Shown: one piece after another, positions 36,033 to 63,600 of the stretch | Layout: the number at the start of each line of letters is the position of its first letter | Position numbering within the stretch: the stretch's first letter is position 1 | NCBI GenBank assembly: GCA_037501455.1 | Contig: CM074858.1 | Coordinates: forward strand, 75,304,501-75,368,500 | DNA from: Lantana camara | Taxonomy: Eukaryota > Streptophyta > Magnoliopsida > Lamiales > Verbenaceae | Length of the DNA stretch: 64,000 bases | Direction of reading: 5' to 3' | Notes under the pieces: generated by a model | Databases searched by the model: none | Seen by the model: the letters and a program-made list of their open reading frames with translations, nothing else | What the model was told of the DNA's origin: nothing | Translations under genes and position numbers: made by a program

Positions 36033-37094
36033 TCCATGCATTTATATGTAATATATTTATCTAATACATAATATACATATATACGAACACCAAGCATGAA
36101 TATATATATAATATATATACATGCACAAATATATGCACACACATCAAATATTACATATATATATATGTATATATACGTATATCATGCATATGTTTTATTA
36201 ATTTAAACCATGCACACTCAACAAACTCTAACATTCAAACATGTATTAATTAGTATATATATATATATATATATATGTTAAGTTGTTGTGCATGTGTGTT
36301 ACGTATACAATGATATTACATTATAAATCACACACACACATATATATATACTACCAGCAAAACACACGCATGCTATGTACATACACAAGCACAAAACAAA
36401 GAAATTACATGCACACATACAGGAAAATAAAGTTGCAGCAGTTAAGGAAATGAACTACAGTCTCCCTACCCCGGGCAAAAACCTAACACAACCTTCCCCG
36501 GCCGGGGAAGGAGATGCATAACGAATCTTCACAAAGTGTCCCCACCCGGGTACACATTTAGTCTAAAATCTCCCCGCCCGCGGAGATCAGCGCAGCAGGA
36601 AAAAGGAATAGCAGCAGTTCACGCAGAACAGGGAAGAAATGAAGGCAAAACAGGGGAGCACACTCTCAAGACTGCAATCCAACACTTAGGCAACAATTAT
36701 AGCAGCTAAAGCAAGAAAATGACGTAACAAACAAGGCACAACAGCAACAGCGAAACACACGTAGCAACAAACAAGGAATTCAGTCCCAAAGCTCCAAAAT
36801 TTTCAAGTTGCAGCCATGGTGGATCCATATACACGACTTATAACTCAAATTCAAGTCCATGAACAAGTAAAGGAAGTTAGAGTGGCATATTTCATGTATT
36901 AATCCTCAAGGAACTCGAAAATAAGGTCATGAATTCAAGAAATGAAAATTAAACCTAACTATTCATTCATGATTCAATTCTCAATCAAACATGGCTCAAA
37001 TTCAGAAAATTATGGATGAAAATGATCACATAAGCATATAGATATCAAATATAAGCTTACCCCTTGAAGATGATGGAAGAAAATAGAGATTGGA
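35274..37094 (-). mobile_element. LTR piece F, host of element E
   Basis: Interior of a minus-strand LTR related to E's. It has predicted middle exon 35382-35297 (TTTTACAG acceptor, AACAG|GTGGGT donor, with CTCCAGGGCGGAG), long TA/CA tracts at 35830-36350, palindromes at 36492-36585, and donor CTTCAAGGG|GTAAGC (GT at 37060-37059). It is interrupted at 37094 by E. Its outer end is beyond the window, and its left end was replaced by M. Confidence 0.7.
36492..36585 (-). repeat. Palindrome cluster of LTR F
   Basis: CCTTCCCCGGCCGGGGAAGG at 36492-36511 is a perfect 20-bp palindrome. GTCCCCACCCGGGTAC (36537) and CTCCCCGCCCGCGGAG (36570) follow. Confidence 0.85.
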
Positions 37095-37844
37095 TGTAGC
37101 ACCCCAACCGGAAAGGTGCCACATCCCCCGCACCGAGACCCGACCCGAATATGAAATGGACAATCCATACCCGAGCTAGATCACGGCGAACGGGGACTCA
37201 CTCACTCCTTAGGCTAGGTGGGAACTAAACCTTCGCAACCAAATCAAAAGAACAAGGATAAATGCCAAAGCAGAAGCATAACATATAATCTCGTAATACT
37301 TCAAGGTACCTAACGGTTTCAACTAGCACAATAACCTGTTCTCGAAAATTCGATCACAACATAATTCCATAATCACAATCATAGTTATACATATACCCAT
37401 TCTGGCAAATTCAATCAAGTTACAAGATGCAGATGAAATGACCCAAAACTTTAACCAATAGGCCTGACGATCTAGACTCCCCGCCTAGCGCTCCAACCTG
37501 CAAAGAAACTGAAAACAAACCGAGTTCAGTCTATACGAGACTGGTGGGTATAAAATGAGGCATAAATAGCGTATACAACAATATTTAACATTCACATGCA
37601 AGTTATAATCCCAAATGAGGGTTTTAGAGCAGTTCCCAAGTGGGTAAAATAAAAAAGTCATCAAAAGGGATTATAACGTTCATTTCCATTCTTTAGGTCT
37701 TTTGTGGCCCGGCGAGTGGGCGTGCATCAACTCCAACCAACACCATGTGTAATTCAATAATCATTCATTCATTAAATCGTTCATGCATATCATTCTTTGT
37801 GCACAATCAATCGATTCGATTCAATCGGTCATATACACCTTCTT

Positions 37845-38053
37845 CCTCTGGTTGATGGCCGGGTGATCGGCCCGAACCATCCAATCATTGACCAAAAGGG
37901 GTAACATGACTCCCCAGATGGCACTCAACTCCCTTTCCCCGCCAATCTCCTGACGAGGTCCGGTACCGCCGTTTAATAGTGGGACTAGTGTGAGGGTTTA
38001 CCGCCAGCCCTTGCCTCCTCGGGTCCCCACTCACACCAAGCCCCTGGGCCCCA
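37845..38053 (-). other. Conserved intron-2 block (E)
   Basis: Minus sense GGGGCCCAGGGGCTTGG ... GGCAAGGGCTGGCGG ... ACCCGG...; it is collinear with the block at 11359-11575 and 49520-49732. The 5' LTR copy is at about 44497-44706. Confidence 0.55.
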
Positions 38054-38236
38054 TTCAGTGCAATCAATCATTCATTCATTTCTCGCCAAAACATTTGGTG
38101 GGTTCATAAAAGAAGGGCTTTACTTTAAAACATTTACTCATCAAAACAACTCTATATACATATATATATTTTTGGCCGAAATCTTTACACGTTGGTAGTA
38201 TATAGGGTCATTTAACTAGATAGAAGAGAAACCCAC

Positions 38237-38321
38237 CTGTACGCATCTTACCGAACAAAACCAAGAAGGCAAGAAGACCCGAAAGTGTCCTATGAACCCG
38301 GCATCTCCGCCCTGGAGAAAA
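38237..38321 (-). other. Predicted LTR leader exon 2 (E)
   Basis: 85 nt on the minus strand between TTTTCACAG and TACAG|GTGGGT, containing CTCCAGGGCGGAG. The 5' LTR copy (44889-44973) keeps both borders. Confidence 0.5.
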
Positions 38322-39031
38322 CTGTGAAAAGATAATGTAACTTGTTCGTGAGATTCAAGACCCCAAACGAACCAAATATGACGCACGGCAATGCTATGAA
38401 TATGATATGAAGGTATAAGATATGATATCATGTCATAGAAACATTCTTGTGTACAATTAATGTCTTAAAGACATAAAAATGTTCAACGCATTCCTTTCGA
38501 GACTCATATAAAAATCATTTAGGTTCATCACTTCATAATCATACCAAATTAATCCAAGTAATTCAAATAATACGCTTAACCCATAGTACAATAGGTAAAC
38601 AATTCATATAAGCTATTAAAAGAAGTAAGATGCCACTTAGGATCCCCACATGAAGCATCAAGGCATACGTTTACCATTTAAATTCATTTAAGTTCATACC
38701 TCTCATAGATCAAGCCAATTCAATCCAAGAATTCCAAATAACAAGCATAACGCGTCATATAGTGTGTACACATATCATACAAGTCATAAAATAAAAGATA
38801 GCAAGCAATTAGGGTTCATCTTAGACGCAAAGGATCCATGCATGCATACATTAGGAGCATTAAAGACATATGAAGCCACAACTCGGAAAATAATTCACGA
38901 AAAATTATAAAACTTCATAACACACAAGTTCACACATTATATGACATGTAAATGAAGTGAAGGAACCAAAAACAATCCAATAACCCCATGCAAATGGGGT
39001 TTGAAAAACAAATTTTCATGCAGCCATGCAG

Positions 39032-39237
39032 GGGTCGCGGGAGCGACCCAAATTACTCATGAAATGGTCGCGGTCGCGACCTAATAAAATCCGAATTTTC
39101 ATGCAATTTTGTGCAATTAACGTGAGCAAATGTGTACAGTGGTCGCGGGCGCGACCTGAGAGAAATCAACGCAGCAACTGTGTGCATGTCGCGGCCGCGA
39201 CTGGTTTTGCACCAATCTCGATCGCGGCCGTGATCGG
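39032..39237 (-). repeat. GGTCGCG palindrome array of E (3' LTR)
   Basis: GGGTCGCGGGAGCGACCC (39032), GGTCGCGGTCGCGACC (39066), GGTCGCGGGCGCGACC (39141), GTCGCGGCCGCGAC (39188) and a GATCGCGGCCGTGATC unit (about 39220). The 5' LTR copy (45685-45925) has one more unit. Confidence 0.9.
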
Positions 39238-40025
39238 CCATATCCAGAACCAAAACGCCCGAAAAACAGAGCAGAACCAAACCAACCTCCTACCAACAAG
39301 TTCAGGTATGATGTGGATACATAAATGCAATATAACAACTCCATCTCAACATATAAACAAGCTTCCAAGGTGATCAAACGTGAGATGGAAGAATAGGTGA
39401 TCATTTCATACATTTTCTTCAAAATCTCATTAATGGCAACTCATGAAATACTTATCCCTCATAAAATACATGATCATGGATGTAAAGAGGAAGTTCAAAC
39501 AATCATATTCATGCTTGGAATCAACTTAAATCATCAAAGAATGAGAGAGATCATCATATTGGCATAAAACCTAACTATTTCTTCACATCCTCAAAATCCC
39601 ACCCATACATGCTCAAAATTGGGGATGCATAGCTTAAAATGATACATATTGAATGTATAATACAATCCTAAACTCACCTTGAAGGTTGGATGAAAGATGA
39701 AAGAGATTTGAGCTTGAATCTCCAAGGTTGGGCATGGTGACGGGAATGAACTGGAGCAGGGGTTGGGGCTAGTTTTTCTCTTGTTTGCTGAATGTATCTC
39801 GGTTGGGAGAGAGTGTGGTTAGATATTGGGTGTAACTAGGGTTCCATAGCTTCACCCATGGTTAATTTGGTCAAGGTTTGAGGGAGATATGTTGAAAATG
39901 GTTAAGGGTGGCCGATTTGCACTCGTTTCGGTTTTCGGTTGGATTTTGGGAGTCCAAATGATCTTAGTAAAATATGAGGTTAAATTTATTGAACCCTAAT
40001 ATTCGTTACGAGTTCAACGGAATTG

Positions 40026-40113
40026 ACGGAACTCGATTCCGAGTTCCCAAGCTCAAGATATCACATACGGAACCAAGGGTGCGCTAATTGCTCGTTAGCC
40101 CCGGTTTGGTTCC
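40026..40113 (-). other. Conserved LTR double-hairpin block (E copy)
   Basis: Minus sense GGAACCAAACC...TTGGTTCC, then GGAACTCGGAATCGAGTTCC, which pairs perfectly. The 5' LTR copy lies outside the window because C is inserted just before it. Confidence 0.7.
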
Positions 40114-40613
40114 ACTCATACCAAATTAATTTAAAATGCAATTAAACAAATCCAAAAACGTAAAACGAGCGTACGTACACATTCGCGACGCACATAACTA
40201 CAACATATCAAATTTCCACCAAATTTCGAATTCATTTCGTATAGTAATGACGCGCAACTTGTCACGTGAATGCAAATCGTTCAAGAATTTATATATTTCC
40301 AATATTCAACTAAAATTAAGTATCCATTTAAAGTATTTAATAAAATTATAACAAATTCATATAATGGAAAATTGATGAAAGTAACCATTAATAATTAGCA
40401 AAGGCGATTAATTAAACAATTACATAATTTAAACGCGAAATTACGGAGCACACAAGTTATTCATATAAATTCCAATTTTAATATTGCATATAATTAAATT
40501 ACTCACTTATTTAACAATTTAAACAATGAAAATTAATTATAAAAACACTGAAAGCCAATTAATTTGCGCAAATTAGTAAACACATATGTCATTTTAAAAA
40601 TACCGAAAAATCG

Positions 40614-40630: not shown

Positions 40631-40671
40631 AAGAATCTGTCCTCGGATTCACTACTCAACCAACAAATAAT

Positions 40672-40805
40672 GAGAGATTCCCCGTCTCTCGCAAACAACA
40701 CGGAGAGAGACCCGTCTCTCACGAACAACAATGAGAGAGCCCCGTCTCTCGAGCAACAATAAGAGAACCCCGTCTCTTACAAGCAAAGAGAGCACCCCAT
40801 CTCTC
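40672..40805 (-). repeat. Five-hairpin array upstream of the polypurine tract (E)
   Basis: Five units start at 40672, 40703, 40733, 40761 and 40788 (plus coordinates). In RNA sense each is a 5-6 bp stem around a 6-7 nt loop: GAGAGACGGGGAATCTCTC, GAGAGACGGGTCTCTCTC, GAGAGACGGGGCTCTCTC, AAGAGACGGGGTTCTCTT and GAGAGATGGGGTGCTCTC. The fourth is identical to unit 5 of the array in D (53872). Spacers are 9-13 nt. The array ends 58 nt from the LTR. Confidence 0.9.
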
Positions 40806-43738: not shown

Positions 43739-43746
43739 CTTAAGGA

Positions 43747-46657
43747 TGTAGCACCCCAACCGGAAAGGTGCCACATCCCCCGCACCGAGACCCGACCCGA
43801 ATATGAAATGGACAATCCATACCCGAGCTAGATCACGGCGAACGGGGACTCACTCACTCCTTAGGCTAGGCGGGAACTAAACATTCGCAACCAATTCAAA
43901 AGAACAAGGATAAATGCCAAAGCAGAAGCATAACATATAATCTCGTAATACTTCAAGGCACCTAACGGTTTCAACTAGCACAATAACCTGTTCTCGAAAA
44001 TTCGATCATAACATAATTCCATAATCACAATCATAGTTATACATATACCCATTCTGGCAAATTCAATCAAGTTACAAGATGCAGATGAAATGACCCAAAA
44101 CTTTAACCAATAGACCTGACGATCTAGACTCCCCGCCTAGCACTCCAACCTGCAAAGAAATTGAAAACAAACCGGGTTCAGTCTATACAAGACTGGTGGG
44201 TATAAAATGAGGCATAAACAGCGTATACAACAATATTTAACATTCACATGCAAGTTATAATCCCAAATGAGGGTTTTAGAGCAGTTCCCAAGTGGGTAAA
44301 ATAAAGAAGTCATCAAAAGGGATTATAACGTTCATTTCCATTCTTTAGGTCTTTTGTGGCCCGGCGAGTGGGCGTGCATCAACTCCAACCAACACCATGT
44401 GTAATTCAATAATCATTCATTCATTAAATCGTTCATGCATATCATTCTTTGTGCACAATCAATCGATTCGATTCAATCGGTCATATACACCTTCTTCCTC
44501 CGGTTGATGGCCGGGTGATCGGCCCGAACCATCCAATCATTGACCAAAAGGGGTAACATGACTCCCCAGATGGCACTCAACTCCCTTTCCCTGCCAATCT
44601 CCTGACGAGGTCCGGTACCGCCGTTCAATAGTGGGACTAGTGTGAGGGTTTACCGTCAGCCCTTGCCTCCTCGGGTCCCCACTCACACCAAGCCCCTGGA
44701 CCCCATTCAGCGCAATCAATCATTCATTCATATCTCGCCAAAACATTTGGTGGGTTCATAAAAGAAGGGCTTTACTTTAAAACATTTACTCATCAAAACA
44801 ACTCTATATACATATATATATTTTTGGCCGAAATCTTTACACGTTGGTAGTATATAGGGTCATTTAACTAGATAGAAGAGAAACCCACCTGTACGCATCT
44901 TACCGAACAAAACCAAGAAGGCAAGAAGACCCGAAAGTGTCCTATGAACCCGGCATCTCCGCCCTGGAGAAGACTGTGCAAAAGACAATGTAACTTGTTC
45001 GTGAGACTCAAGACCCCAAATGAACCAAATATGACGCACGGCAATGCTATGAATATGATATGAAGGTATAAGATATGATATCATGTCATAGAAATATTCT
45101 TCTGTACAATTAATGTCTTAAAGACATATAAATGTTCAACGTATTCCTTTCGAGACTCATATAAAAATCATTTAGGTTCATCACTTCATAATCATACCAA
45201 ATTAATCCAAGTAATTCAAATAATACGCTTAACCCATAGTACAATAGGTAAAAAATTCATATAAGCTATTAAAAGAAGTAAGATGCCACTTAGGATCCCC
45301 ACATGAAGCATCAAGGCATACGTTTACCATTTAAATTCATTTAAGTTCATACCTCTCATAGATCAAGCCAATTCAATCCAAGAATTCCAAATAACAAGCA
45401 TAACGCGTCATATATTGTGTACACATATCATACAAGTCATAAAATAAAAGATAGCAATCAATTAGGGTTCATCTTAGACGCAAAGGATCCATGCATGCAT
45501 ACATTAGGAGCATTAAAGACATATGAAGCCACAACTCGGAAAATAATTCACGAAAAATTATAAAACTTCATAACACACAAGTTCACACATTATATGACAT
45601 GTTAATGAAGTGAAGGAACCAAAAACAATCCAATAAACCCATGCAAATGGGGTTTGAAAAACAAATTTTCATGCAGCCATGCAGGGGTCGCGGGCGCGAC
45701 CCAAATTACTCATGAAATGGTCGCGGTCGCGACCTAATAAAATCCGAATTTTCATGCAATTTTGTGCAATTAACGTGAGCAAATGTGTACAGTGGTCGCG
45801 GGCGCGACCTGAAATGCAAAGGATTCAGGTCGCGGGCGCGACCTGAGAGAAGTCAACGCAGCAACTGTGTGCATGTCGCGGCCGCGACTGGTTTTGCACC
45901 AATCGCGATCGCGGCCGCGACCGGCCATATCCAGAACCTAAACGCCCGAAAAACAGAGCAGAACCAAACCAACCTCCTACCCACAAGTTCAGGTATGATA
46001 TGGATACATAAATGCAATATAACAACTCCATCTCAACATATAAACAAGCTTCCAAGGTGATCAAACGTGAGATGGAAGAATAGGTGATCATTTCATACAT
46101 TTTCATCAAAATCTCATTAATGGCAACTCATGAAATACTTATTCCCCATAAAATACATGATCATGGATGTAAAGAGGAAGTTCAAACAATCATATTCATG
46201 CTTGGAATCAACTTAAATCATCAAAGAATGAGAGAGATCATCATATTGGCATAAAACCTAACTATTTCTTCACATCCTCAAAATCCCACCCATACATGCT
46301 CAAAATTGGGGATGCATAGCTTAAAATGATACATGTTGAATGTAAAATACAATCCTCAACTCACCTTGAAGGTTTGATGAAAGATGAAAGAGATTTGAGC
46401 TTGAATCTCCAAGGTTGGGCATGGTGACGGGAATGAACTGGAGCAGGGGTTGGGGCTGGTTTTTCTCTTGTTTTCTGAATGTATCTCGATTGGGAGAGAG
46501 TGTGTTTAGATAGTGGGTGTAACTAGGGTTCCATAGCTTCCAACCATGGTTAATTTGGTCAAGGTTTGAGGGAGAAATGTTGAAAATGGTTAAGGGTGGC
46601 CGATTTGCACTCGTTTCGGTTTTCGGTTGGATTTCGGGAGTCCAAATGATCTTAGTA
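43747..46657 (-). mobile_element. 5' LTR of E (part within window)
   Basis: TGTAGCACCCCAACCGG rightward; collinear with 37095-39969. It is interrupted after GATCTTAGTA by element C. It has an extra unit of about 34 bp (about 45810-45843) containing one more GGTCGCGGGCGCGACC palindrome than the 3' LTR. Confidence 0.88.
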
Positions 46658-48381: not shown

Positions 48382-48485
48382 CCCGTTCCTGCGAGGAACG
48401 GGGGTGCAAACCGGCCTGGAATTTCTGTACCGAGACACGGGGGTGTCTCGGTCCAGGCTTGGAGGGTGACACGGGGGTGTCACCC
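48382..48485 (+). repeat. GC-rich palindrome cluster in LTR of C
   Basis: CCCGTTCCTGCGAGGAACGGG (arms 48382-48389 and 48395-48402), a 22-bp GAGACACGGGGGTGTCTC palindrome (48430-48451) and a 22-bp GTGACACGGGGGTGTCAC palindrome (48464-48485). The 3' LTR copy is at about 62426-62529, with a few substitutions. Confidence 0.88.
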
Positions 48486-49519: not shown

Positions 49520-49732
49520 CGGGCCCCGGGACTTAGTATATGTGGCTAACCGAGGAAGCAAGGGCTGACGGGGATCCCATATACTGGTTCCAACCAAACT
49601 ATGGTGATACCGGCCCTCGCTAGGAGGTTTAGCGAGGAATGGGAGCTAAGTGCCCTTGGGGGATTCATGTACCCCCATTGGCCTATGTATGAACCGGTGG
49701 TCAGGTCTAGCTAACTTGTCCACCACCCGGAG
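49520..49732 (+). other. Conserved intron-2 block (C), target of D
   Basis: GGGCCCCGGGACTTAG ... GGGCTGACGGGGATC ... CACCACCCGGAG. It matches J at 11359-11575. Element D landed at its 3' edge. The 3' LTR copy is at 63564-63780. Confidence 0.6.
49728..49732. repeat. TSD CGGAG (left copy) of D
   Basis: CGGAG before TGTAACGCCCAAATT; repeated at 56452-56456 after GGGTGCTACA. The empty-site sequence CCACCCGGAGGAAG is visible in the 3' LTR of C at 63767-63780. Confidence 0.97.
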
Positions 49733-50593
49733 TGTAACGCCCAAATTTTATTAATCATAATTTTCGGTTATTATAGTAAATTTTGAAATTTATTTTATAA
49801 TGAAAAATATTTATTGCATGAAATAATTGCCGAGAACATTTCAAATTACCAAATTGTCCCTAGTTAAATACTTTCTAAAACTTTGGGGACTTAATTGCAT
49901 GATTTTTCAAGGAGATAATTGATCACTTTCAAAACCTACCTATACCTTATTGTATAACTTAAACAATTGAGGGATTAATTGGCAAACTAGCATATTTCAC
50001 ATGTTTCAAAAATAGATATTATGTTAATCTCTTCCATAAGCTTCTATAAGCTCATTTCATCCAAGAATTTCCAAAAATATCCATCCCTCTCTCTCGGTAT
50101 CCATTGGAAGAAAAGGAAGAAGTGATTTTCTTATCAATCATCAAGATTTCAAGAATTATTCCAAGCTTTTGAGAGTTGATCATCTTCATCACCTTCTTCT
50201 CCATTCCTTCATTTTCAAGGTTGGTTGCATGGAAAAGCATGATTTTTGATCATATTTGAATAGGTTAGGGTTTGAGTGATATATGCTATATGATTGAAAT
50301 AGAATTGGAAGTATGATTGAATGATCATAACATGAACTATTACATGATTTCTAGCTTGAATCATTGAATATTTGGCAAGAATGAGCTAGGTTGATCATAG
50401 GCTTGAGACCTTGGAATCTTGTTGATATTGCATGTTTTATATGTTCAAGTGATAGATTATCATGTGTTGAAGTTGTATACATCATATTTCCAGAAATTAT
50501 AGCTTTTGGGGATCAAATATGGAATTTGTGGCCTTGTTGCTTTCTTCCCCGAGAGCTTCCCCTGTTTCTGCCTCTGTTTTTCATTTACAGAGA

Positions 50594-50824
50594 CTGGGAA
50601 CGACCGTTCCCAGCCCCAAGGCATCGCGGGAACGGGCGTTCCCATTCCTTTTCAAAATATGAGCGGCCGAGCATGGGAACGGCCGTTCCCATTTTGGCCT
50701 TGCGCCGGAAGGGCCGTTCCCAGCTCAAAGGCGCGCTTCAGAGGGGAAAAACGCGGGCACGTTTTGGGGAACTCTTGGGAACGACCGTTCCCATTTTACA
50801 AAGGGAACGGGAACGGTCGTTCCC
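50594..50824 (+). repeat. GGGAACG palindrome array of D (5' LTR)
   Basis: Six units: CTGGGAACGACCGTTCCCAG (50594), CGGGAACGGGCGTTCCC (50628), ATGGGAACGGCCGTTCCCAT (50673), GGAAGGGCCGTTCC (50707), TGGGAACGACCGTTCCCA (50776) and GGGAACGGTCGTTCCC (50809). The 3' LTR copy at 54821-55051 is identical. Confidence 0.93.
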
Positions 50825-51048
50825 ACCTGTGATGCAGAACAAAATATTCTGCACAAAATTACGAAATTAACCCCTCGACCCGACGACTTCTTTGACCCCG
50901 AATTGCTATAAGATATGCTAATATGATGTGAAACCAAATGTTTTCATGCCACATTGCATTTTCATGATCGTTTCGACACATTTCCGCCGTTCGTCATATT
51001 TGGTCCATTCTAGGTCATAACTCATGTACACACGTCGTGTTTACACAG

Positions 51049-51113
51049 GTCACGAGGTCGTGAACGAGGGACAAGCTCCCTAGAACGTATCCTTGTCGCA
51101 TTTCACAAGAAAG
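51049..51113 (+). other. Predicted LTR leader exon 2 (D)
   Basis: 65 nt between GTTTACACAG|G and AAGAAAG|GTGAGG; copied at 55276-55340. Confidence 0.5.
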
Positions 51114-51343
51114 GTGAGGTTTAGTTAATATTAGTATAACACCCTATAACCTTTATGTGAACTTTCAAGCCAAAAAGGTATTTACTTTATTTCTTACATT
51201 ATTTCTAAACATTCAAAACAACTTCAAGCAATCGAACCCATGCAAAGCAATGCTTGTAGTTCGATTAATAGCATGACCATGCAAAGCAATGCATGTATTG
51301 TACCATTCATGATTGTCTAGTGGCGAGTAGCATGATTACACAT

Positions 51344-51545
51344 TGGGCCCGAGGGTACGTGTACGAGTCAACCGGGAAAGCATTGGGCTGACGGGTAGCT
51401 CTATACACACCCCTCAACACTGGGATGACCCCTGAATCCACCAGGAGGTTGGTGGAGGAAGGAATCCCGCACGTGGGAGTCATGTTCCTGACGTGCGTAG
51501 ACTGGATGGATAGGGCCTTGCAAACCCACCATCACCCGGAGTGAA
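51344..51545 (+). other. Conserved intron-2 block (D)
   Basis: TGGGCCCGAGGG ... GGGCTGACGGGTAG ... CACCATCACCCGGAG. It is a more diverged member of the block seen in J, C and E; copied at 55571-55772. Confidence 0.5.
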
Positions 51546-52231
51546 GGAGTTCATAAATTGAATACGTGTACACCTTAACTGAATTGCTTGATCACATGAT
51601 ATTATAACTAGCTGGTAATGATTCACTATTGGAGTAAGGTTGGAGAAGCCCACACTCGCCAGGGCCACGGATCAATGAAATGACTTTTATTTAATAAACT
51701 TGATAGTTGTAATCTCGGGCGATGAGTTTATATTTTAAACTTATATTGCTTTCATAGTAAAACATTACCCGAGGTCACAACGTGCATGTTACTTGTGTTA
51801 TACATATATTAACTGCTTCACTCAGTCTTCCATGGACTGACACCCCACCTTTCAGGTACTTGAGAGCAGTCGTTTGCTAGGCGGGAGTCGAGTCAGGTCG
51901 CATCTCCACGGAGTCTAGCATTTCATTTCATGTTTTGTACAGAACTTTAGATATTATGTTTTGATGTTACTTTCACATGCTGGATTGTGATGTGAACAAC
52001 ATGCAAGGAATGTTAATGTATTGGTAGATATATTACCTATAATAAATTACTCAGTGCTTCCGCTCCATCTTATCGCATGTTTAGTTTAGTTCCCGCCTAG
52101 CTTGTTGGTATTGCATTGTCACCCGTTCGCTATAGCTTTGATTTATGTATGGATTACCCATTTCATACGTGGATTGAGGCTATAGTGCGGGGGTGTGGCA
52201 CCTCCACGTGTAAGGGGTGCTACATCTAAGG

Positions 52232-52243
52232 TGGTATCAGAGC
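52232..52243 (+). promoter_or_regulatory. Primer-binding site of D
   Basis: TGGTATCAGAGC, 7 bp after the LTR end at 52224. Confidence 0.95.
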
Positions 52244-52481
52244 CCGGTTGCAAAACCGAGGTTCTCGAGTCGTGTCAAGTGAGTCTAGGTCGAACGGCGT
52301 AGGATTACCTGTTACGTGAGAAGTTGGTATTTAATTGAAATTACGTGAATTGCTTGAACTCTTGAATTATTTGAATTTCTGAGATTCTTTGAAGTGTGTG
52401 CTGCATTAACTTTATGAAATTATTTGCACACATTTCGCATCTATTAACCAAAACATGCATGTATAGTGATCTCATTTCAGG

Positions 52482-53597
52482 ATGGATCATGATAGACATC
52501 ATCGTGACCGGTCCCCGAGACATAGACATCATCATCATCGTCGCCACCATCGCCATGAGGAGTCATCCCCTTCTCCACCTCCTCAAGCCCAGCCTCAGGA
52601 TTTTATGAACGCTGTGGTAGGGTTAATTGATCAGAGGATACAGGAAAGGGTTCCTCCCGTACCACCTGTGCAGGTAGCACCACCACATAACCCTATTTCT
52701 GCTATACTCCGGGAATTCCAAAATCAACAACCCCCAAAGTTCTACAAGGGTGATGACATTCAGGCTGAAATGTGGCTTAAGGAGATCGATAGAATTTGGC
52801 AGCTCATTCCTTGTGACTCCCAGGAAAAAGCTCGCTGCACCCTTACTTTGATTCAGGGCGAGGCGTATTCCTGGTGGGAAAGTACTCAGATCGTATTAGA
52901 GGCTACCGGAGAAGCTATCAATTGGGAAGTATTTGTTAGAGAATTCAGAAACAAATTTATTCCTCCAGCTTCACGTACTCGGAGGTTGAGGGAATTTACC
53001 GAATTAAAGCAAGAAGGAAGGTCTGTGGGTGAGTATATAGCGGAGTTTGAACGCTTATCTCGCTATGCACCCAATATAGCGAGTGACGATTTCCACAAAG
53101 CAATGCAATTTGTGCAAGGACTCAGACCGGAGATACAGGATGCTTTGAAAGCCGCTAATACAAGTACTTGGGCCAAGGCTACTGCGAAAGCGTTGAAGGT
53201 TGAGGATTCGGACAATGCAAGAAGGCCTGTTCCTCCTCTCGAACAGGACTTAGTCCCAGGATCAGGACCAGATTCTAATATAATGAAAAGGCCCGCTAGT
53301 GACTCGGTTCTACCACCTCCGGAAAGATCTAAAAAGAAGAAGTCCCAGAATAATAAACCAGTTTCAGGAAGTACTTCTACCACAACTTCGCCATCACAGT
53401 CAGGAAAGATTCTTTGCACATATTGTGGGCGTGATAATCATACTTACGAGAATTGCCGAGAACGGTTAAATCTATGTATGAGATGTGGGGGTAAAGACCA
53501 TCAAGCAAATATGTGTCCAAGGCGAAGGGAAAGAACAAGAATAGCCCGAGGTATCAACTACCTTCATAGCAACTTCCATGGTGAACGGTATCATTAA
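52482..53597 (+). CDS. gag: Gag protein of element D (intact, 371 aa)
   Basis: The only frame of D, 238 bp after the PBS, in an untranslated leader of ordinary length. The N-terminus (residues 1-28) is dense in H, R and D with an RS-like stretch, followed by a proline-rich linker. The capsid domain (Retrotrans_gag type) spans about residues 85-245, with PKFYKGDD, YSWWEST, FVREFRNKFIP and GLRPEIQDAL motifs. After a basic linker (KKKKSQNNK) come two intact CCHC knuckles near residues 308-348: CTYCGRDNHTYENC and CMRCGGKDHQANMC. It then ends within about 25 residues, where protease would begin in a full element. It would package retroelement RNA into particles. Its N-terminal design resembles Gag of C. 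No stop or frameshift is visible. Confidence 0.93.
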   Translation: MDHDRHHRDRSPRHRHHHHRRHHRHEESSPSPPPQAQPQDFMNAVVGLIDQRIQERVPPVPPVQVAPPHNPISAILREFQNQQPPKFYKGDDIQAEMWLKEIDRIWQLIPCDSQEKARCTLTLIQGEAYSWWESTQIVLEATGEAINWEVFVREFRNKFIPPASRTRRLREFTELKQEGRSVGEYIAEFERLSRYAPNIASDDFHKAMQFVQGLRPEIQDALKAANTSTWAKATAKALKVEDSDNARRPVPPLEQDLVPGSGPDSNIMKRPASDSVLPPPERSKKKKSQNNKPVSGSTSTTTSPSQSGKILCTYCGRDNHTYENCRERLNLCMRCGGKDHQANMCPRRRERTRIARGINYLHSNFHGERYH

Positions 53598-53759
53598 ACA
53601 TGCATATCACGAGCATCATGAATTTTATTATCACTGAAATTATTGCTCGCAACAATGTGCTTCAATGTGAGAGATAGATGGGTATGATTGGCGGGACGAC
53701 TTGCTTCTTTTGTGATAAATGTTTCAAGCATCATTTTGGGTTGTTCCTTGAGTACGTTA
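53598..53759 (+). other. Non-coding segment between gag and hairpin array of D
   Basis: 162 bp with no recognisable pol motifs, replacing the roughly 3-4 kb of pol expected in a full-length relative. I see nothing further in it. Confidence 0.5.
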
Positions 53760-53889
53760 GAGAGACGGGGTTCTCTCCTAACTTGTCCGAGAGGCGGGGC
53801 ACTCTCATCTTTACCGAGAAACGGGGTTTTCTCACTTATTGTGGAAAGACGGGGATCTTTCACCTTTGTTCAAGAGACGGGGTTCTCTT
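53760..53889 (+). repeat. Five-hairpin array upstream of the polypurine tract (D)
   Basis: Five 18-nt units at 53760, 53789, 53816, 53844 and 53872: GAGAGACGGGGTTCTCTC, GAGAGGCGGGGCACTCTC, GAGAAACGGGGTTTTCTC, GAAAGACGGGGATCTTTC and AAGAGACGGGGTTCTCTT. Stem positions 1, 3 and 5 each change from G-C to A-T in one unit with the partner base changed too, while CGGGG in the loop is invariant. Start-to-start spacing is 27-29 nt. It lies 70 nt before the 3' LTR. The array is duplicated in type, not in orientation, in E. Confidence 0.93.
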
Positions 53890-53940
53890 ATACCTCGTGC
53901 ATTGTTTGCAAACTTGAAAGTGGACCTGGGGACCAGGTCC

Positions 53941-53959
53941 TTTTTAAGGGGGGAAGATT
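53941..53959 (+). promoter_or_regulatory. Polypurine tract of D
   Basis: TTTTTAAGGGGGGAAGATT immediately before TGTAACGCCCAAA. Confidence 0.88.
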
Positions 53960-56451
53960 TGTAACGCCCAAATTTTATTAATCATAATTTTCGGTTATTA
54001 TAGTAAATTTTGAAATTTATTTTATAATGAAAAATATTTATTGCATGAAATAATTGCCGAGAACATTTCAAATTACCAAATTGTCCCTAGTTAAATACTT
54101 TCTAAAACTTTGGGGACTTAATTGCATGATTTTTCAAGGAGATAATTGATCACTTTCAAAACCTACCTATACCTTATTGTATAACTTAAACAATTGAGGG
54201 ATTAATTGGCAAACTAGCATATTTCACATGTTTCAAAAATAGATATTATGTTAATCTCTTCCATAAGCTTCTATAAGCTCATTTCATCCAAGAATTTCCA
54301 AACATATCCATCCCTCTCTCTCGGTATCCATTGGAAGAAAAGGAAGAAGTGATTTTCTTATCAATCATCAAGATTTCAAGAATTATTCCAAGCTTTTGAG
54401 AGTTGATCATCTTCATCACCTTCTTCTCCATTCCTTCATTTTCAAGGTTGGTTGCATGGAAAAGCATGATTTTTGATCATATTTGAATAGGTTAGGGTTT
54501 GAGTGATATATGCTATATGATTGAAATAGAATTGGAAGTATGATTGAATGATCATAACATGAACTATTACATGATTTCTAGCTTGAATCATTGAATATTT
54601 GGCAAGAATGAGCTAGGTTGATCATAGGCTTGAGACCTTGGAATCTTGTTGATATTGCATGTTTTATATGTTCAAGTGATAGATTATCATGTGTTGAAGT
54701 TGTATACATCATATTTCCAGAAATTATAGCTTTTGGGGATCAAATATGGAATTTGTGGCCTTGTTGCTTTCTTCCCCGAGAGCTTCCCCTGTTTCTGCCT
54801 CTGTTTTTCATTTACAGAGACTGGGAACGACCGTTCCCAGCCCCAAGGCATCGCGGGAACGGGCGTTCCCATTCCTTTTCAAAATATGAGCGGCCGAGCA
54901 TGGGAACGGCCGTTCCCATTTTGGCCTTGCGCCGGAAGGGCCGTTCCCAGCTCAAAGGCGCGCTTCAGAGGGGAAAAACGCGGGCACGTTTTGGGGAACT
55001 CTTGGGAACGACCGTTCCCATTTTACAAAGGGAACGGGAACGGTCGTTCCCACCTGTGATGCAGAACAAAATATTCTGCACAAAATTACGAAATTAACCC
55101 CTCGACCCGACGACTTCTTTGACCCCGAATTGCTATAAGATATGCTAATATGATGTGAAACCAAATGTTTTCATGCCACATTGCATTTTCATGATCGTTT
55201 CGACACATTTCCGCCGTTCGTCATATTTGGTCCATTCTAGGTCATAACTCATGTACACACGTCGTGTTTACACAGGTCACGAGGTCGTGAACGAGGGACA
55301 AGCTCCCTAGAACGTATCCTTGTCGCATTTCACAAGAAAGGTGAGGTTTAGTTAATATTAGTATAACACCCTATAACCTTTATGTGAACTTTCAAGCCAA
55401 AAAGGTATTTACTTTATTTCTTACATTATTTCTAAACATTCAAAACAACTTCAAGCAATCGAACCCATGCAAAGCAATGCTTGTAGTTCGATTAATAGCA
55501 TGACCATGCAAAGCAATGCATGTATTGTACCATTCATGATTGTCTAGTGGCGAGTAGCATGATTACACATTGGGCCCGAGGGTACGTGTACGAGTCAACC
55601 GGGAAAGCATTGGGCTGACGGGTAGCTCTATACACACCCCTCAACACTGGGATGACCCCTGAATCCACCAGGAGGTTGGTGGAGGAAGGAATCCCGCACG
55701 TGGGAGTCATGTTCCTGACGTGCGTAGACTGGATGGATAGGGCCTTGCAAACCCACCATCACCCGGAGTGAAGGAGTTCATAAATTGAATACGTGTACAC
55801 CTTAACTGAATTGCTTGATCACATGATATTATAACTAGCTGGTAATGATTCACTATTGGAGTAAGGTTGGAGAAGCCCACACTCGCCAGGGCCACGGATC
55901 AATGAAATGACTTTTATTTAATAAACTTGATAGTTGTAATCTCGGGCGATGAGTTTATATTTTAAACTTATATTGCTTTCATAGTAAAACATTACCCGAG
56001 GTCACAACGTGCATGTTACTTGTGTTATACATATATTAACTGCTTCACTCAGTCTTCCATGGACTGACACCCCACCTTTCAGGTACTTGAGAGCAGTCGT
56101 TTGCTAGGCGGGAGTCGAGTCAGGTCGCATCTCCACGGAGTCTAGCATTTCATTTCATGTTTTGTACAGAACTTTAGATATTATGTTTTGATGTTACTTT
56201 CACATGCTGGATTGTGATGTGAACAACATGCAAGGAATGTTAATGTATTGGTAGATATATTACCTATAATAAATTACTCAGTGCTTCCGCTCCATCTTAT
56301 CGCATGTTTAGTTTAGTTCCCGCCTAGCTTGTTGGTATTGCATTGTCACCCGTTCGCTATAGCTTTGATTTATGTATGGATTACCCATTTCATACGTGGA
56401 TTGAGGCTATAGTGCGGGGGTGTGGCACCTCCACGTGTAAGGGGTGCTACA
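53960..56451 (+). mobile_element. 3' LTR of D
   Basis: 2,492 bp, collinear with 49733-52224, with one difference seen by eye. It is followed directly by CGGAG. Confidence 0.95.
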
Positions 56452-57222
56452 CGGAGGAAGAAGGTGTATATGTATGATTATGATCATTTATGTATGTGCA
56501 CGAAAGATATGTATGACAACCAATAATTATGATATGATTACACGAGGAGAAGGTTGGAGATTGTGCACGCTCACTCGCCGAGCTTAAACCCTTATGAACA
56601 ATTATGAATGAAAATGAACGTCGTAATCCCGTTGATGTCTTCTTTGGTGTAACCACTTGGTAAATTCCTTTCAAACTTCACACGGGATTAGGGCTTGCAT
56701 GTATGTGTTTAATTTATGCGATATTATATATCCTATGCCCCGTTTTTATACCCACCAGTCTCTTTTAGACTGAACCCAGTTGTTTTCAGCTATTTTGTGC
56801 AGGTATAAGAGTGCTAGGCGGGAATACAAGTCGTCTAGGTCTTGCATTTTTGTTTAGCACTTCTTTTCAGTATCATATTCATACTCTTGTTGCTACTTTT
56901 GTATTTGATCATAGTATAGATTGGAGCGTTATGATTTTGTAGGCCGTGAGTGCCGTTGCATATTAGAATGCTCTTGTATATCTATTTTTTTAGAGCTTGT
57001 TAGCTCACTGTATCTATGCTATGTTATTCTTGCTTCCGCGAATTTTATTTAACTCTGATTTTATGATTCTTGCACTGATTGGTTTAAGGGTTAGTCCCGC
57101 CTAGCCTAGCGTGTGTGTTGTGTCCCCGTTCGCCGTGGATTTGGCACGTGTATGGACTTCTATTTCATATACGGGTCGGGTCTCGGTGCGGGGGATGTGG
57201 TACCTTACGCTCGGGTGCTACA
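56452..57222 (+). mobile_element. 5' LTR of C, second part (with right TSD copy 56452-56456)
   Basis: Resumes CGGAGGAAGAAGG as in the uninterrupted 3' LTR at 63772. It contains the CAGTCT...AGACTG hairpin (about 56757-56773), acceptor TTTTGTGCAG|G (AG at 56801-56802) before GCTAGGCGGG, and ends GGGTGCTACA at 57222. Confidence 0.93.
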
Positions 57223-57242: not shown

Positions 57243-57436
57243 TTAGGGTTGCAAAACCCGGGCTCTAGTGTTGTGTTGAGTCAGTTAGGTCGTTCGGCTT
57301 TAGGAACAACTTGTCAATGTGTTGCATATGCATTGTTTACGTGCTTGTGTGCTCTAATCTGGAATTTTGATCGAATTAATTGCACTTGCATGCATGGACT
57401 AAAAATAGCATGCATTTTCAGTATTTCTTGAACAGG

Positions 57437-58423
57437 ATGCCTCCATGCAGACACCGTGAGAGATCTCCCGGACGCCGTCGTCATCATGATCGATCTCCTA
57501 CGCCTCCACCCCAACCACAAGCACCATCGATGGATATGGGGAATTTCATGGAAGCGGTTTTCAACTATGTTGAGCATAGAAGGGCTCAAGCTTCCCCACC
57601 ACAACAGGCAGAACAACAAGCCCCTCCACCGAATCATAATAACAATAGAGAACCTCATGGGGTGTTTCTGAGTTATAACCCCCCTCGATCTTCTGGTGCT
57701 AGCGATGATGCGGTCTCGGAGGGTTGGTTGATTCGAGTAGAGAGGATATCTGGAGTCAGACAGTCTACTACGCAAGGGGAGGGAATCAAAAAGAAGGATC
57801 CGATTTTTAGAGCTCCTATGAGAAGAGGTTCCGGATCGAATTCGGGAAAGAGGCCAATGATGCAAGCTAGTCCTCCTCCTAAGGTTCCGTTTAAGAAGCC
57901 AAGAATGGGAGGACCAACTCCACCGGTCCCAAAAGCTCTGCCTACACCTACGAAAGATCGACAAGGTCCGAGCGTGGCGAGATTGGCTCAAGCTCCCTGT
58001 ATACATTGTGGAGGACCAACTCATAATTACTATAACTGTCGGAGGAGGTTGAAATTGTGCTTTATATGTGGAAAAGGCGACCATATGGCGGATACTTGCC
58101 CCTATAAAGACCCCGGATATCAAAGTCGAGTTCAAAGGCCAATGATCCCGGCTCGTGCTTACGCTAACGAAGGTGAAGAGCAAGATGCCGAGATTGATCC
58201 CACAGCTATGATAGAAGGTACCCTATGCATACATAACATGAGCATTCATGCACTCTTTGATTCGGGTGTCACGCATTCTCTTATTTCTTGTGACGTAGTT
58301 GCTATTCCGTGCTTGTCTGTTATTTGCTTTTCTTCTTCTTGTTGTTTGGTGAGTTCGCCACTGGGTGGTAGTCTTCAGACAGATCAGTTGGTTTGGGAGT
58401 GTTCAGTTCTGATGGAAGGATAA
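57437..58423 (+). pseudogene. gag: Internally deleted gag-protease of C
   Basis: The ATG at 57437 starts MPPCRHRERSPGRRRHHDRS, close in style to D's Gag. The frame stays open for 329 codons, but the capsid core is missing: the sequence passes from the FLSYNPPRSSGASDDAVSEGWL region directly to a short RVERISG stretch and then the basic linker. Both CCHC knuckles are intact (CIHCGGPTHNYYNC, CFICGKGDHMADTC, about 57998-58105). Protease shows LFDSGVTHSLIS with its DSG triad. It ends soon after in an unrelated-looking tail where protease/RT sequence has been deleted. It cannot form a capsid on its own. Confidence 0.88.
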
Positions 58424-59220: not shown

Positions 59221-60688
59221 TGTGTCCAATGTGAAAGTGGAAATTGGAAATGAGAATGAGTTGTTCAGACTGAGGGCTAGGGTTCGGAATATTACAGTTC
59301 GACCAGATCTTAAACAGAAGTTATTTGATACTCAGAGGATTGATCCCGAGGTTCAGAAATTAGCTGGGAAAACTCGAGCTGATTCAGAGTGTCCGTTTGG
59401 GTTTGATGATTCGGGACTTCTAAGATTCAAGAATAGAGTTGTTGTCCCAGAAGAATAAAAAAGGATTATTCATGAGGAAGCCCATCGGTCAGGGTATTCG
59501 TTACATCCCGGAGGAACAAAAGGTATAAGGATCTTAAGCAATTCCATGGGTGGAATGAATTGAGAACGAGATGTTATCAACTTTGTGAAACATTGCAGGA
59601 CTTGTCAAGTGATTAAGGCAGAACATCAAAAGCCATCGGGGCTACTTCGCTCATTGCCTATCCCGGAGTGGAAATAGGAACAGATAGCTATGATTTTTGT
59701 TTTGGGATTACCAAAAGTGAGAGTAGGTTTTTATAGAATTTGGGTTACTGTGGACAGGTTGACGAAATCCGCTCATTTTCTTGCAACCAGAATGCCCGAT
59801 AAGTGAGTAAGTTGGCTAAGAGGTACAATGATGAGATTGTCAGGCTTCATGGTGTACCTGTTAGTATTGTCTCGGATTGGGATCCCAGATTTACATCAAG
59901 GCTATGGCAAGGATTACAGAAGTGTTTGGGAACAAGGCTTCAATTCAGCACAGCTCTCCATCCTCAGACCGACGGACAATCAGAAAGGTTAATTAAGTAT
60001 CTGGAGGATTTGTGAGAGCATGTGCATTGGACTTCCAGAGTTCGTGGAATGAAGAGTTACAGTTAACCGAGTTTGTTTACAACAATAGCTATCAAGCCTC
60101 GATTGAAATGACCCCTTATGAAGCTCTTTATGGACGTAAATGTCGATCACCGTTGTTCTTTGACTTGGAGGAATGGAACTGGACCAAGCAAGAAGGGATT
60201 AAAAGAAGGGAAAAGAAGGAAAAACCCTCTAAGGCTGTACAAGAGGCTATTGACAAGGTCCAGATAATTAGACAACAGATGAAGGTCGCTCAGGATCGAC
60301 AAAAGAGTTATGCAAATCTTCGGAGGAAGAAATTGGAGGTTGAGATTGGAGATAAGGTTTTCCTAAAGGCTTTCCCACGAAAAGGATTCTCAAGGATTGG
60401 ACGAGGAGGAAAATTTAACACTTGCTCCGAAAGTATTTTCGAGATGAGTTCGAGGTTCTACCAGTTGAAGAAGTGGAATTAGAACCGGATCTCACCTTCG
60501 TTCAGAAGCCGATTAAGATATTGGATCGAAAATTTCAGGAACTTCGGAATCGGTGTATTCCACTAGTCAAGGTTCTTTGGAGAAGTGATAAAACCGAAGA
60601 GGCTACGTGGGAGACGGACGATAAGATGAAAAGGTTTCACCCCGAGTTGTTCCGAGTGAGCAATGAATCCGAGGACGGATTCTTTTAA
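59221..60688 (+). pseudogene. pol: Integrase and chromodomain of C
   Basis: Integrase pieces lie in several frames. The HHCC region is broken at about 59457-59575, with stops and frameshifts. The first catalytic aspartate position reads AMIFVLGLP (D lost, about 59690). The second region SDWDPRFTSRLW is at about 59872, and the glutamate in GQSERLIKYLEDL at about 59975, followed by TGA at 60013. A second open part (60012-60482) includes YNNSYQASIEMTPYEALYGRKCRSP and GDKVFLKAFPRKGFSRIG. The chromodomain follows in another frame (60510-60660; VKVLWRSDKTEEATW), ending with a stop at 60686-60688 just before the polypurine tract. Confidence 0.88.
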
Positions 60689-60699: not shown

Positions 60700-63600
60700 T
60701 GTAACGCCCCGATTTTTCGGACGTAAAGGTAGGACGTACGTGTTTACCTAATTTCGCGAATTAATTGTTTTTACGTGTTTTATATTTAATTTTATTATAA
60801 TTGTTATTATTTTATTATATTATATTATAATATTTTATTTTAATATTATTAATTATATATATATATATATATATTTCGCATTATATATATATATATATGT
60901 TTAATTACTATATTATTAATTTAATGATTATACTAATTATATGTTACATTAATTAATCATGTTTTAATTAATTAATTGATTATTTATATATATATATATA
61001 TATTTATACGTACAATATAAATTATGCATGAAGATTTTATTTATGCATGCAAATTAATATATTTATGCATGGGAATTAAATATGCATGAATTTCATTTCA
61101 TTTTTGCATGAATTTGGTTGAATTGTGCATGGGAATTTTATGATTTATGCATGAATTGTATGATTGAGTTTGTTCGTTTATTTTGTGCTTCGTTCTCTTA
61201 TGAAATGATATTGAAATGCCACGATTTTCTAATATGTTGTACATATATGTGTTATGAACATGATTTTATGCTCAAATTATGTTTTTGAATTTATTTGTTG
61301 TGTTAACGAATTAAATTTTAATTGAGGAACCAAAACGGGAGCTAATGAGCACTTAGCGTACCCTTGGCTCCGAATTTAATATATTGAGCTCGGGAACTCG
61401 GATTCGAGTTCCGTCAACTCCGCTGAACTTATAACAAAAATTTGAGTTTAGTACACTTAGCCTCATATTTTTCTTAAGTCATTTGAAACTCCGAAATCCA
61501 ACCGAAAAACGAAACGGAGACCAACTTGACCTTGTTGCACTAAATCAGCCATATCTTGAGCAAACCATAACCAAATTAACCATGGTTTGATTCTTTGAAA
61601 CCCTAACTCAACCCTCTATCATGACATAACCAGCATTGACTGAGATTATCCTCACACAAGCCCCAAAACTCGGCCAAAGCTCCTGTTCCTCATTCCAGTC
61701 CCGAAACCCTTCATCCCTTGGAGATTTTGGAGCTCAAATCTCATCCAAACTTCAACCAATCATCAAGGTAAGTTAAGGGTTGTATTGTATGTTTAATTCT
61801 GATCATTTTCATCCTTCCATTCATGATTTTGAGCATGGTTTCATGATTTTCTGGGCTTTTACCGAAAATAAAGGATTTTGGGCAAAATGTTGATCTTCTT
61901 CGTTTTTCAATGATTTTGATTGATTCCAAGCCTGAGATTAATTGATTTAGCATCCTCATAACATTTATGATCTTTGATTTCATGGTTGTTGAAATATTTA
62001 TGAGATATCACTTATGAAATTTTGAGAAAATCCCACATGTTTGTCACGTATGGCTTCCTTCTTGTGTGAGTTTGTTTGGGACTAAATCTTGGGTTGGTTT
62101 CATGTTATTTTGCTGCACAATTGTTGGCTTTTTGGACCTGATCTGAGTTGTTTGAGCTGTGAGCAAGCATGCTCTGTTTTTCCTCCAGTTTTGATAGGTT
62201 TTGGGCTTGGAGTTTGCTGTCAAACTGTTGTCAATTCCTTCTTCCTTTTTGTTGTCTCTTTCATGGATTCTTGGGTGTATTTAACTGAGTCTTTTACAGC
62301 TTTTCATGCATGATTTTGTTGCCTTTCTTGCTCGTACATGGCTGCCTTTTTCCTGCTCTGTTTCTGCGCATTTTGCTGTACGAAACAGAGGCTGCTGTTG
62401 CTGCGTCACGGGCGTGCTATTTCTACCCGTTCCTGCGAGGAACGGGGGTGCAAACCGGCCTGGAATTTCTGTACCGAGACACGGGGGTGTCTCGGTCCAG
62501 GCTTGGAGGGTGACACGGGGGTGTCACCCCGTTTTCCTTGGATTTTTGCTGAGTTTCCTGGACTGTTGCTGCTGCTGTTATGTTGGCATGGTGTGTGCGT
62601 GAGTTGCATGCTTGGGTTGAGTGTGCATGCATGGAGTGAGTTTGTGCGTGATTGTGTGATTGAATGCATGCATGGTTAGAGTATTGTATAAGTTGCATGC
62701 ATGTTTGTGTATAATATATATAGTATATATATATATATGCATGTAATATATAAGATATATATGCATGCATGGGTAGGTTGTGTGTGTGTACGTGTATATA
62801 TGTATATATTATATATGTATATTGTATATTATTAGATATATATGATTATATGTATATATTATAAATATTGTATATTATTATATATGGTTATTTATATATA
62901 TTATATTATGTATATTTATTGTATATTTTAAATATTATTTGATTTAATTTAATTATTGAAATTACTTGAATTCTATTTCGCGTATTTATTCTACTGACTT
63001 TTGCTTGAACGTTTTATTTATTTATTCCTATTTGTGAATGTGAATATTATATGTTATGCTTATTAAATGAATGAGATTAATTGATATGCATTATGAATTA
63101 TGAATTTACGAATATTATGAATATATGAATTTATGAAATTATGAAATTGAATGAAATATATGAACGAATGATTTGATTATATGATTTAAATTCTTTAATC
63201 GTGCACATGAACATTTTTATGATAAAACATGACCATTATGCATTCATGTCATAGTCACTTCATTGCCGAGCGTCATATGTGGTCATTGAGTCTCATACCT
63301 TTTCTTTTGTACAGATTCGAGTTTGGTCGGAGACGAGGGCGAGCATTGAGACGCTTGTGCCTTTATTTTGCTTTGGTAAAGGTGGGTTTTTCTTCTACTA
63401 GTTAAACAACCCTATAAATCCCTTATGTGCAAAGTTTTAAGCCAAAATAATATATTTATATAAATTGAGTCAATTTGGGTCAATGATTTCAAATGTATGA
63501 CCCCTTTTTATTTGTGAAACCCTACCTTATGTTTGGCGAGACACATTTATATATATACTTGTTCGGGCCCCGGGACTTAGTATATGTGGCTAACCGAGGA

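Follow-up and report, generated by a model that had tools for sequence, protein, structure and literature searches.

The retroviral stem-loops SL1–SL4 are located in the 5′ leader and are single copies of different hairpins with G-rich loops. These packaging and dimerisation stem-loops are mentioned in PMC3902901, where quadruplex-prone sites at set places in plant LTR elements are also reported. The Sireviruses (Ty1/copia) carry conserved motifs repeated just upstream of the 3′ LTR; these are multiple polypurine tracts (PPTs), and at the terminal PPT there is an inverted repeat that can fold into a stem-loop (PMC2829016). In elements of the Retand/Tat group, tandem repeats separate the coding region from the 3′ LTR (PMC11963269), and the text of that article uses neither 'hairpin' nor 'secondary structure'. 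Here we describe an array of short hairpins in LTR elements of Lantana camara.

The window analysed is a stretch of 64,000 nucleotides (GCA_037501455.1, contig CM074858.1, positions 75,304,501 to 75,368,500, forward strand). The site contains a nest of three LTR elements. D is inserted in the 5′ LTR of C, and C in turn in the 5′ LTR of E, an element of the minus strand. The LTRs of D (plus strand, 49733–52224 and 53960–56451; 2.49 kb) are 99.96% identical and the element is flanked on both sides by the 5-bp target repeat CGGAG (49728–49732 and 56452–56456), so D is probably the product of a recent true retrotransposition. Its sole ORF of at least 200 aa (52482–53597, plus strand) matches only Retrotrans_gag and Ty3_capsid in Pfam. 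Pieces of element B found no reverse transcriptase (RT) or chromodomain match between the LTRs of D, and the protease piece of B matched D through its residues 43–79 only, its protease domain starting later (102–184). D has two LTRs with a target-site duplication, a primer-binding site (PBS), a PPT, and gag without protease, RT or integrase, as in gag-only LTR retrotransposons; we take it to be of the TR-GAG type, which it resembles in having LTRs, PBS, PPT and gag only. The LTRs of E (minus strand) are located at 43744–46657 (5′, cut by the insertion of C) and 37092–40612 (3′, its start approximate, as the usual TG is absent), and are 97–98% identical over the aligned parts. Between them there is no ORF of at least 200 aa, and none of five gag/pol pieces taken from B and D matches there. 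An LTR pair around a non-coding interior is LARD-like, and E is presumably a LARD-type non-autonomous LTR element. The Pfam and ORF scans agree with the earlier statement that D encodes Gag alone and E nothing. To our knowledge, no hairpin array is known for TR-GAG or LARD-type elements.

Elements B and C carry pol. A chromodomain (Chromo, PF00385, E 5.7e-06) terminates pol in B and C aligns to the same region, which places both among the chromoviruses (Ty3/gypsy); we assume their lineage to be Tekay. The first ORF of C (57380–58423) is missing about 360 nt of gag region present in the pol-bearing relatives L091–L093 (loci are cited by our L numbers), so that C, in the present copy, has a defective gag of its own. 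A search for Gag homologues gave two matches, both unnamed.

The array of D occupies 53760–53889 on the plus strand. It consists of five units starting at 53760, 53789, 53816, 53844 and 53872 (start-to-start 29, 27, 28 and 28 nt), with stems of 5–6 bp and loops CGGGGN. The stems had been given in the preliminary description as GAGAGA/TCTCTC, GAGAG/CTCTC, GAGAAA/TTTCTC, GAAAGA/TCTTTC and AAGAGA/TCTCTT, and the same units were recovered on re-reading. The two-sided changes reported at three stem positions were found at pairs 1, 3 and 5, where pair 1 is the outermost and pair 6 adjoins the loop. E has five units of like design at 40672–40805 on the minus strand (spacing 27, 28, 30 and 30 nt), and one unit, AAGAGACGGGGTTCTCTT, is identical letter for letter in both elements. 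The CGGGG loop, described as invariant, is so in D; in E the forms TGGGGT, CGGGTC and CGGGGAA also occur. B and C lack the array, as had been noted. The LTRs of C contain hairpins of their own, GAGACA/TGTCTC and GTGACA/TGTCAC, which are paired 34 nt apart in both LTRs (48432–48449 and 48466–48483; 62476–62493 and 62510–62527; plus strand) and whose loop, CGGGGG, resembles that of the array units. Similar hairpins are found on the minus strand from 10417 and 10309 (10.3–10.4 kb).

The array resembles each of the described systems in part. As in Sireviruses, conserved motifs are repeated just upstream of the 3′ LTR, but there the motif is the PPT of a Ty1/copia element and here it is a hairpin some 50–335 nt upstream of the PPT in pol-less elements of Ty3/gypsy type (PMC2829016). 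Membership in the Sireviruses was considered and rejected on the Ty3-type Gag of D and B, the chromodomain of B and the hairpin nature of the repeated unit. The position matches that of the Retand/Tat tandem repeats (PMC11963269), and the LTRs and non-coding interior of E those of LARD elements. Several short hairpins with G-rich loops stand in series, as in SL1–SL4, but the latter are single, unlike hairpins of the 5′ leader, whereas the array units are near-identical, repeated and close to the 3′ end.

D and E had been considered unrelated. This cannot be maintained, because they share both a U5-PBS-leader module and a hairpin immediately before the PPT. In D the PBS (TGGTATCAGAGC, which we take to resemble initiator tRNA-Met) is located at 52232–52243 on the plus strand and starts the leader module common to C and E; B has the same PBS. 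When C, D, E and nine other elements were aligned, 11 of the 12 contained the U5 inverted repeat, the PBS, a leader hairpin around GGTTGCAAAACC or a variant of it, and a conserved leader stretch, the exception being L026, which ends before the PBS. The module is also carried by the pol-bearing L091–L093. Homologues of 52147–52303 are found in L010, L012, L016–L018, L024, L025, L028 and L091–L093, whose LTRs are otherwise different. The pre-PPT hairpin is GGACCTG-GGGAC-CAGGTCC in D (53922–53940, plus strand), followed at 53941–53957 by a T run and the PPT. In E it is GAATCC-GAGGAC-AGATTC with one pair broken (40633–40650, minus strand); in C, GAATCC-GAGGAC-GGATTC at the end of the pol frame (60665–60682, plus strand); and in B, AGAATCT-GAGGAC-AGATTCT (27198–27217, plus strand), the last two elements having no array. 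All four elements of the window thus carry a single hairpin, its loop GAGGAC or GGGAC, with stems that differ widely and still pair, in pol-bearing and pol-less elements alike. It was counted in 35 of 64 sources; two of these picks (L040, L049) were false, lying inside the array, although the true hairpin is present in both. Of the 29 misses, 17 were pol ends beginning inside the hairpin, and among the remaining 47 sources it is seen in 39 and not seen in L032, L035, L037 and L043–L047. D and E possess the replication signals of chromodomain elements, to which the array is an addition.

The abundance of the array was estimated in this one genome (1.27 Gb). The pattern RRRRRRCGGGGNYYYYYY has 48,798 matches (24,456 + 24,342), and the reversed pattern used as a control has 266 (131 + 135). 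With roughly three listed matches per cluster, there are perhaps ten thousand or more copies of the array. We read 82 array loci, including D and E; 60 came from a pattern search favouring consensus stems and 20 from the RRRRRRCGGGGNYYYYYY list. They contain 370 units, 328 of them in distinct context, with 2–9 units per array and consecutive units mostly 27–35 nt apart. Linkers measure 10–12 nt in 135 of 183 cases and are 57.5% T and 8% A. When units were defined by their stems alone, six-nucleotide loops were Y-GGG-R-Y with few exceptions, usually YGGGGY. In each unit a stem of purines opposite pyrimidines exposes a G-rich loop, and U/G-rich linkers lie between units. No Rfam match was obtained within 52200–54100 at E values up to 1. 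A single exact match of GAGAGACGGGGNTCTCTC (L070) to a viral contig concerned a lone unit without an array and was taken as chance.

Covariation across many copies had been set beforehand as the test of selection on pairing. In the 82 loci 1883 of 1968 stem cells are paired, more than in any of 1000 shuffles of whole 3′ arms (mean 1847.5, sd 2.3, maximum 1855); units were limited to at most three changes from the common stem per arm and the shuffles carry the same limit. Mutual information was calculated for the first 100 listed RRRRRRCGGGGNYYYYYY matches, all located within 9 Mb of the start of contig C1, where pairing is unselected beyond the purine/pyrimidine pattern. The true pairs 1–6 gave 0.161, 0.007, 0.397, 0.040, 0.155 and 0.001, with the 30 false pairs at or below 0.045; values were also highest on true partners in the 82-locus set. 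In a separate C1 sample one false pair (0.176) exceeded all true pairs except pair 3. Eight of the 100 listed sequences were set aside, five because their loop had 7 nt and three because they were far from the unit; Fisher tests on the remaining 92 gave P of 8.6e-05, 9.5e-15, 0.014 and 2.8e-04 at pairs 1, 3, 4 and 5 and no association at pairs 2 and 6.

A further sample was drawn from successive clusters of the RRRRRRCGGGGNYYYYYY list, leaving out neighbouring repeats of one array and lone matches. In 65 distinct rows from successive C1 clusters, two-sided changes occur at five of the six pairs, in 16 cells against 2.8 (sd 1.5) after shuffling, and slid controls fell below the true alignment by all measures. 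Taken alone, the number of additional pair types was reached in 29 of 500 shuffles. Pairing in 44 distinct stems of the consensus-biased sample was within the range of shuffles (219 versus 215.7, sd 2.1, maximum 225), covariation being diluted there since the search pattern favoured consensus stems. Overall, selection on pairing of the stems is supported by these comparisons of sequences.

The two arms of an inverted repeat share their DNA context, so G.U and A.C pairs are expected to be equally frequent without selection on RNA. At pair 3, genome-wide counts are 401 for G.U and 165 for A.C, with no control matches of either kind; the binomial P of 1.2e-23 is too small, because the copies are related. 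Counting distinct contexts in the 82 loci, the G.U:A.C ratios at pairs 1–6 are 10:14, 16:2, 4:3, 19:4, 8:6 and 3:5, or 60:34 in total (P 0.0096). Pairs 2 and 4 combined have 35 G.U and 6 A.C, and there is no excess of G.U at pairs 1, 5 and 6. The RRRRRRCGGGGNYYYYYY list sample gave 23:10 (P 0.035); pair 3, at 0:2 there and 4:3 in the 82 loci, is too rare in small samples to tell. An earlier sample, obtained with a less even unit finder, had 63:45 overall and 21:35 at G-C pairs. Bias of one arm would not be enough to produce the excess, as the wobble comes from one arm at pair 3 and from the other at pairs 2 and 4. Together these counts give moderate support for selection acting on the sense RNA in the middle pairs of the stem.

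The arrays are located upstream of the PPT and are not scattered at random, in line with the preliminary description: 66 of the 82 are succeeded by a hairpin, a T run, a purine tract and the start of an LTR, and each of the 20 ten-kb loci has one cluster of at least three units. In 15 of the 16 arrays without this succession, no more than 357 nt of downstream sequence was available, short for the far distance class; in the remaining one (L015) the tract is present and the LTR pattern failed. In L044 a unit runs into an LTR-like start without a tract. The distance from the last unit to the PPT depends on the family and is about 49–66, 212–244 or 307–335 nt, a roughly sixfold range. These classes leave out L011 (147) and L082 (103), which are false pattern matches, and L041 (236), a matter of cluster choice; in L016, L027 and L087 (84–109 nt) unscored variant units lie between. 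In L031 and L090 the PPT has grown to a run of at least 14 G.

Arrays were expected mainly in pol-less elements, and this holds in the sample. Coding content was read for 20 of the 80 fetched arrays. Five of the 20 ten-kb loci (L012, L013, L019, L022 and L023) represent copies of a single family. Neither the RT piece nor the chromodomain piece of B matched the element upstream of the array at any of the 20; in L017 an RT lies downstream of the 3′ LTR. A D-like gag is present in two (L021 and L025), where the protease piece of B matched at residues 44–90 only, before its protease domain. No array precedes the purine tract in B, C or 20 chromodomain-pol 3′ ends, which were fetched from 150 scored matches to the chromodomain end of C (17,912 candidates). 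These ends are 79–95% identical to C and all are its relatives; 17 of them start inside the hairpin, and array absence in these rests on an unbroken protein match. Clustering of 51 LTR starts (first 250 nt, single linkage) gave 23 families at 80% identity and 15 at 70%. One 80% family contains both kinds of element: L010, L029, L033, L040, L049, L075, L079 and L080 with arrays, and the pol-bearing C, L064, L065 and L069 without. Different families have related stretches within their non-coding interiors. Retand/Tat repeats are called family-specific (PMC11963269), whereas one unit is common here to 21 LTR families at 80% and 13 at 70%, leaving out B and L063, which have no array.

The explanation that we prefer, tentatively, is that the array is an RNA module acting in cis in non-autonomous Ty3/gypsy elements, which parasitise chromodomain-bearing relatives, and that it serves as a multivalent Gag-binding signal for packaging or dimerisation. 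The preliminary description had proposed an RNA signal, for packaging, dimerisation or plus-strand priming, by which parasites use a partner's proteins; selection on pairing, the place of the array and its restriction to pol-less elements in the sample favour such a signal, and the variable distance to the PPT disfavours priming. Flexible distance and unit number, loops on pairing-conserved stems and U/G-rich linkers make the array look like a multivalent protein-binding module, of which a flexible position relative to the PPT is to be expected. Zinc knuckles of retroviral proteins favour exposed G and UG-rich RNA, so the zinc-knuckle part of Gag is the likely binder of the G-rich loops and U/G-rich linkers. 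Several Gag molecules would bind one RNA, so that RNA with the array would be over-represented in virus-like particles, or dimerised for entry into them; autonomous elements would supply these particles in whole or in part. The array would add to a packaging function of the shared leader, and the parasite RNA would compete with helper RNA. A point against the Gag-packaging reading is that D has its own Gag, which shares about 35% identity with the Gag of the likely helpers (34.9% with that of the pol-bearing L091), so that either Gag may be the one that reads the array. Minimum-free-energy folding is weak (z −2.0 for D and −0.1 for E). The mean probability of the exact local hairpin is 0.21, or 0.41 with a span of up to 40 (95 units, 22 arrays), low because arms of different units can pair together; the differing stems of D would limit such cross-unit pairing. 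A broader proposal, possible but more doubtful, is that a shared packaging handle marks a guild of pol-less retrotransposons of some 20 LTR families, is absent from their autonomous hosts and outcompetes host RNA for virus-like particles.

Other functions of the RNA were considered. Dimerisation through loop-loop or G-quartet contacts, in which the GGGG loops of two RNA copies join and favour co-packaging, would suit an array with several loops whose G at positions 2, 3 and 4 is nearly invariant (160–164 of 167 six-nucleotide loops). However, position 5 is A in 16 of the 167, variants such as TGGGAT and CGAGGT are seen, and we regard the proposal as unlikely in its own right; it overlaps the Gag-binding explanation and may be part of it. 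A priming role, in which the array shapes the RNA around the PPT and aids RNase H in making the correct primer cut, agrees with the position of arrays upstream of the tract, and such a role has been proposed for the stem-loop at the Sirevirus PPT (PMC2829016). We rank it lowest, as improbable, since the distance to the PPT is not fixed and, depending on the family, is anything from about 50 to 335 nt; moreover, the hairpin adjoining the tract is a separate one, which array-less pol-bearing elements have as well.

It is somewhat less probable than dimerisation that the signal faces the host and controls stability, nuclear export, translation or escape from silencing of the pol-less 3′ untranslated RNA. 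The array does sit in the 3′ untranslated part and is present with or without Gag, but the pol-bearing elements that were read face the same host without it, and no host factor can be named. Hardly different in probability, though a little lower, is that the array has no function: a short tandem repeat would have multiplied by slippage and been passed on to descendant families, and template switching in the course of reverse transcription would have made its palindromes perfect. Plant Retand elements commonly have tandem repeats near the 3′ end (PMC11963269), the non-coding interiors of different families are related in part, and the G.U excess is missing at some pairs. Template switching and descent do not, however, by themselves predict the preponderance of G.U over A.C at pair 3, U-rich linkers of near-constant length, or absence of the array from pol-bearing relatives with a similar LTR.

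Among the records listed by literature searches, one of them by sequence letters, neither the array nor the pre-PPT hairpin was described in the titles and the beginnings of abstracts, or in the passages of three papers. Judged by its sequence, the array would be a structured cis signal of LTR elements that is new in form, place and link to non-autonomy. A conserved RNA structure now separates the parasites from likely helpers with a similar LTR, PBS and PPT, which makes it testable how helper particles choose plant non-autonomous LTR elements that lack pol or any gene. The array offers a defined candidate signal with natural pairs of elements with and without it, and a marker for such parasites in other plants. 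If the broader proposal of a shared packaging handle is true, a multivalent Gag-binding array at the 3′ end would be unlike any packaging signal known to us.
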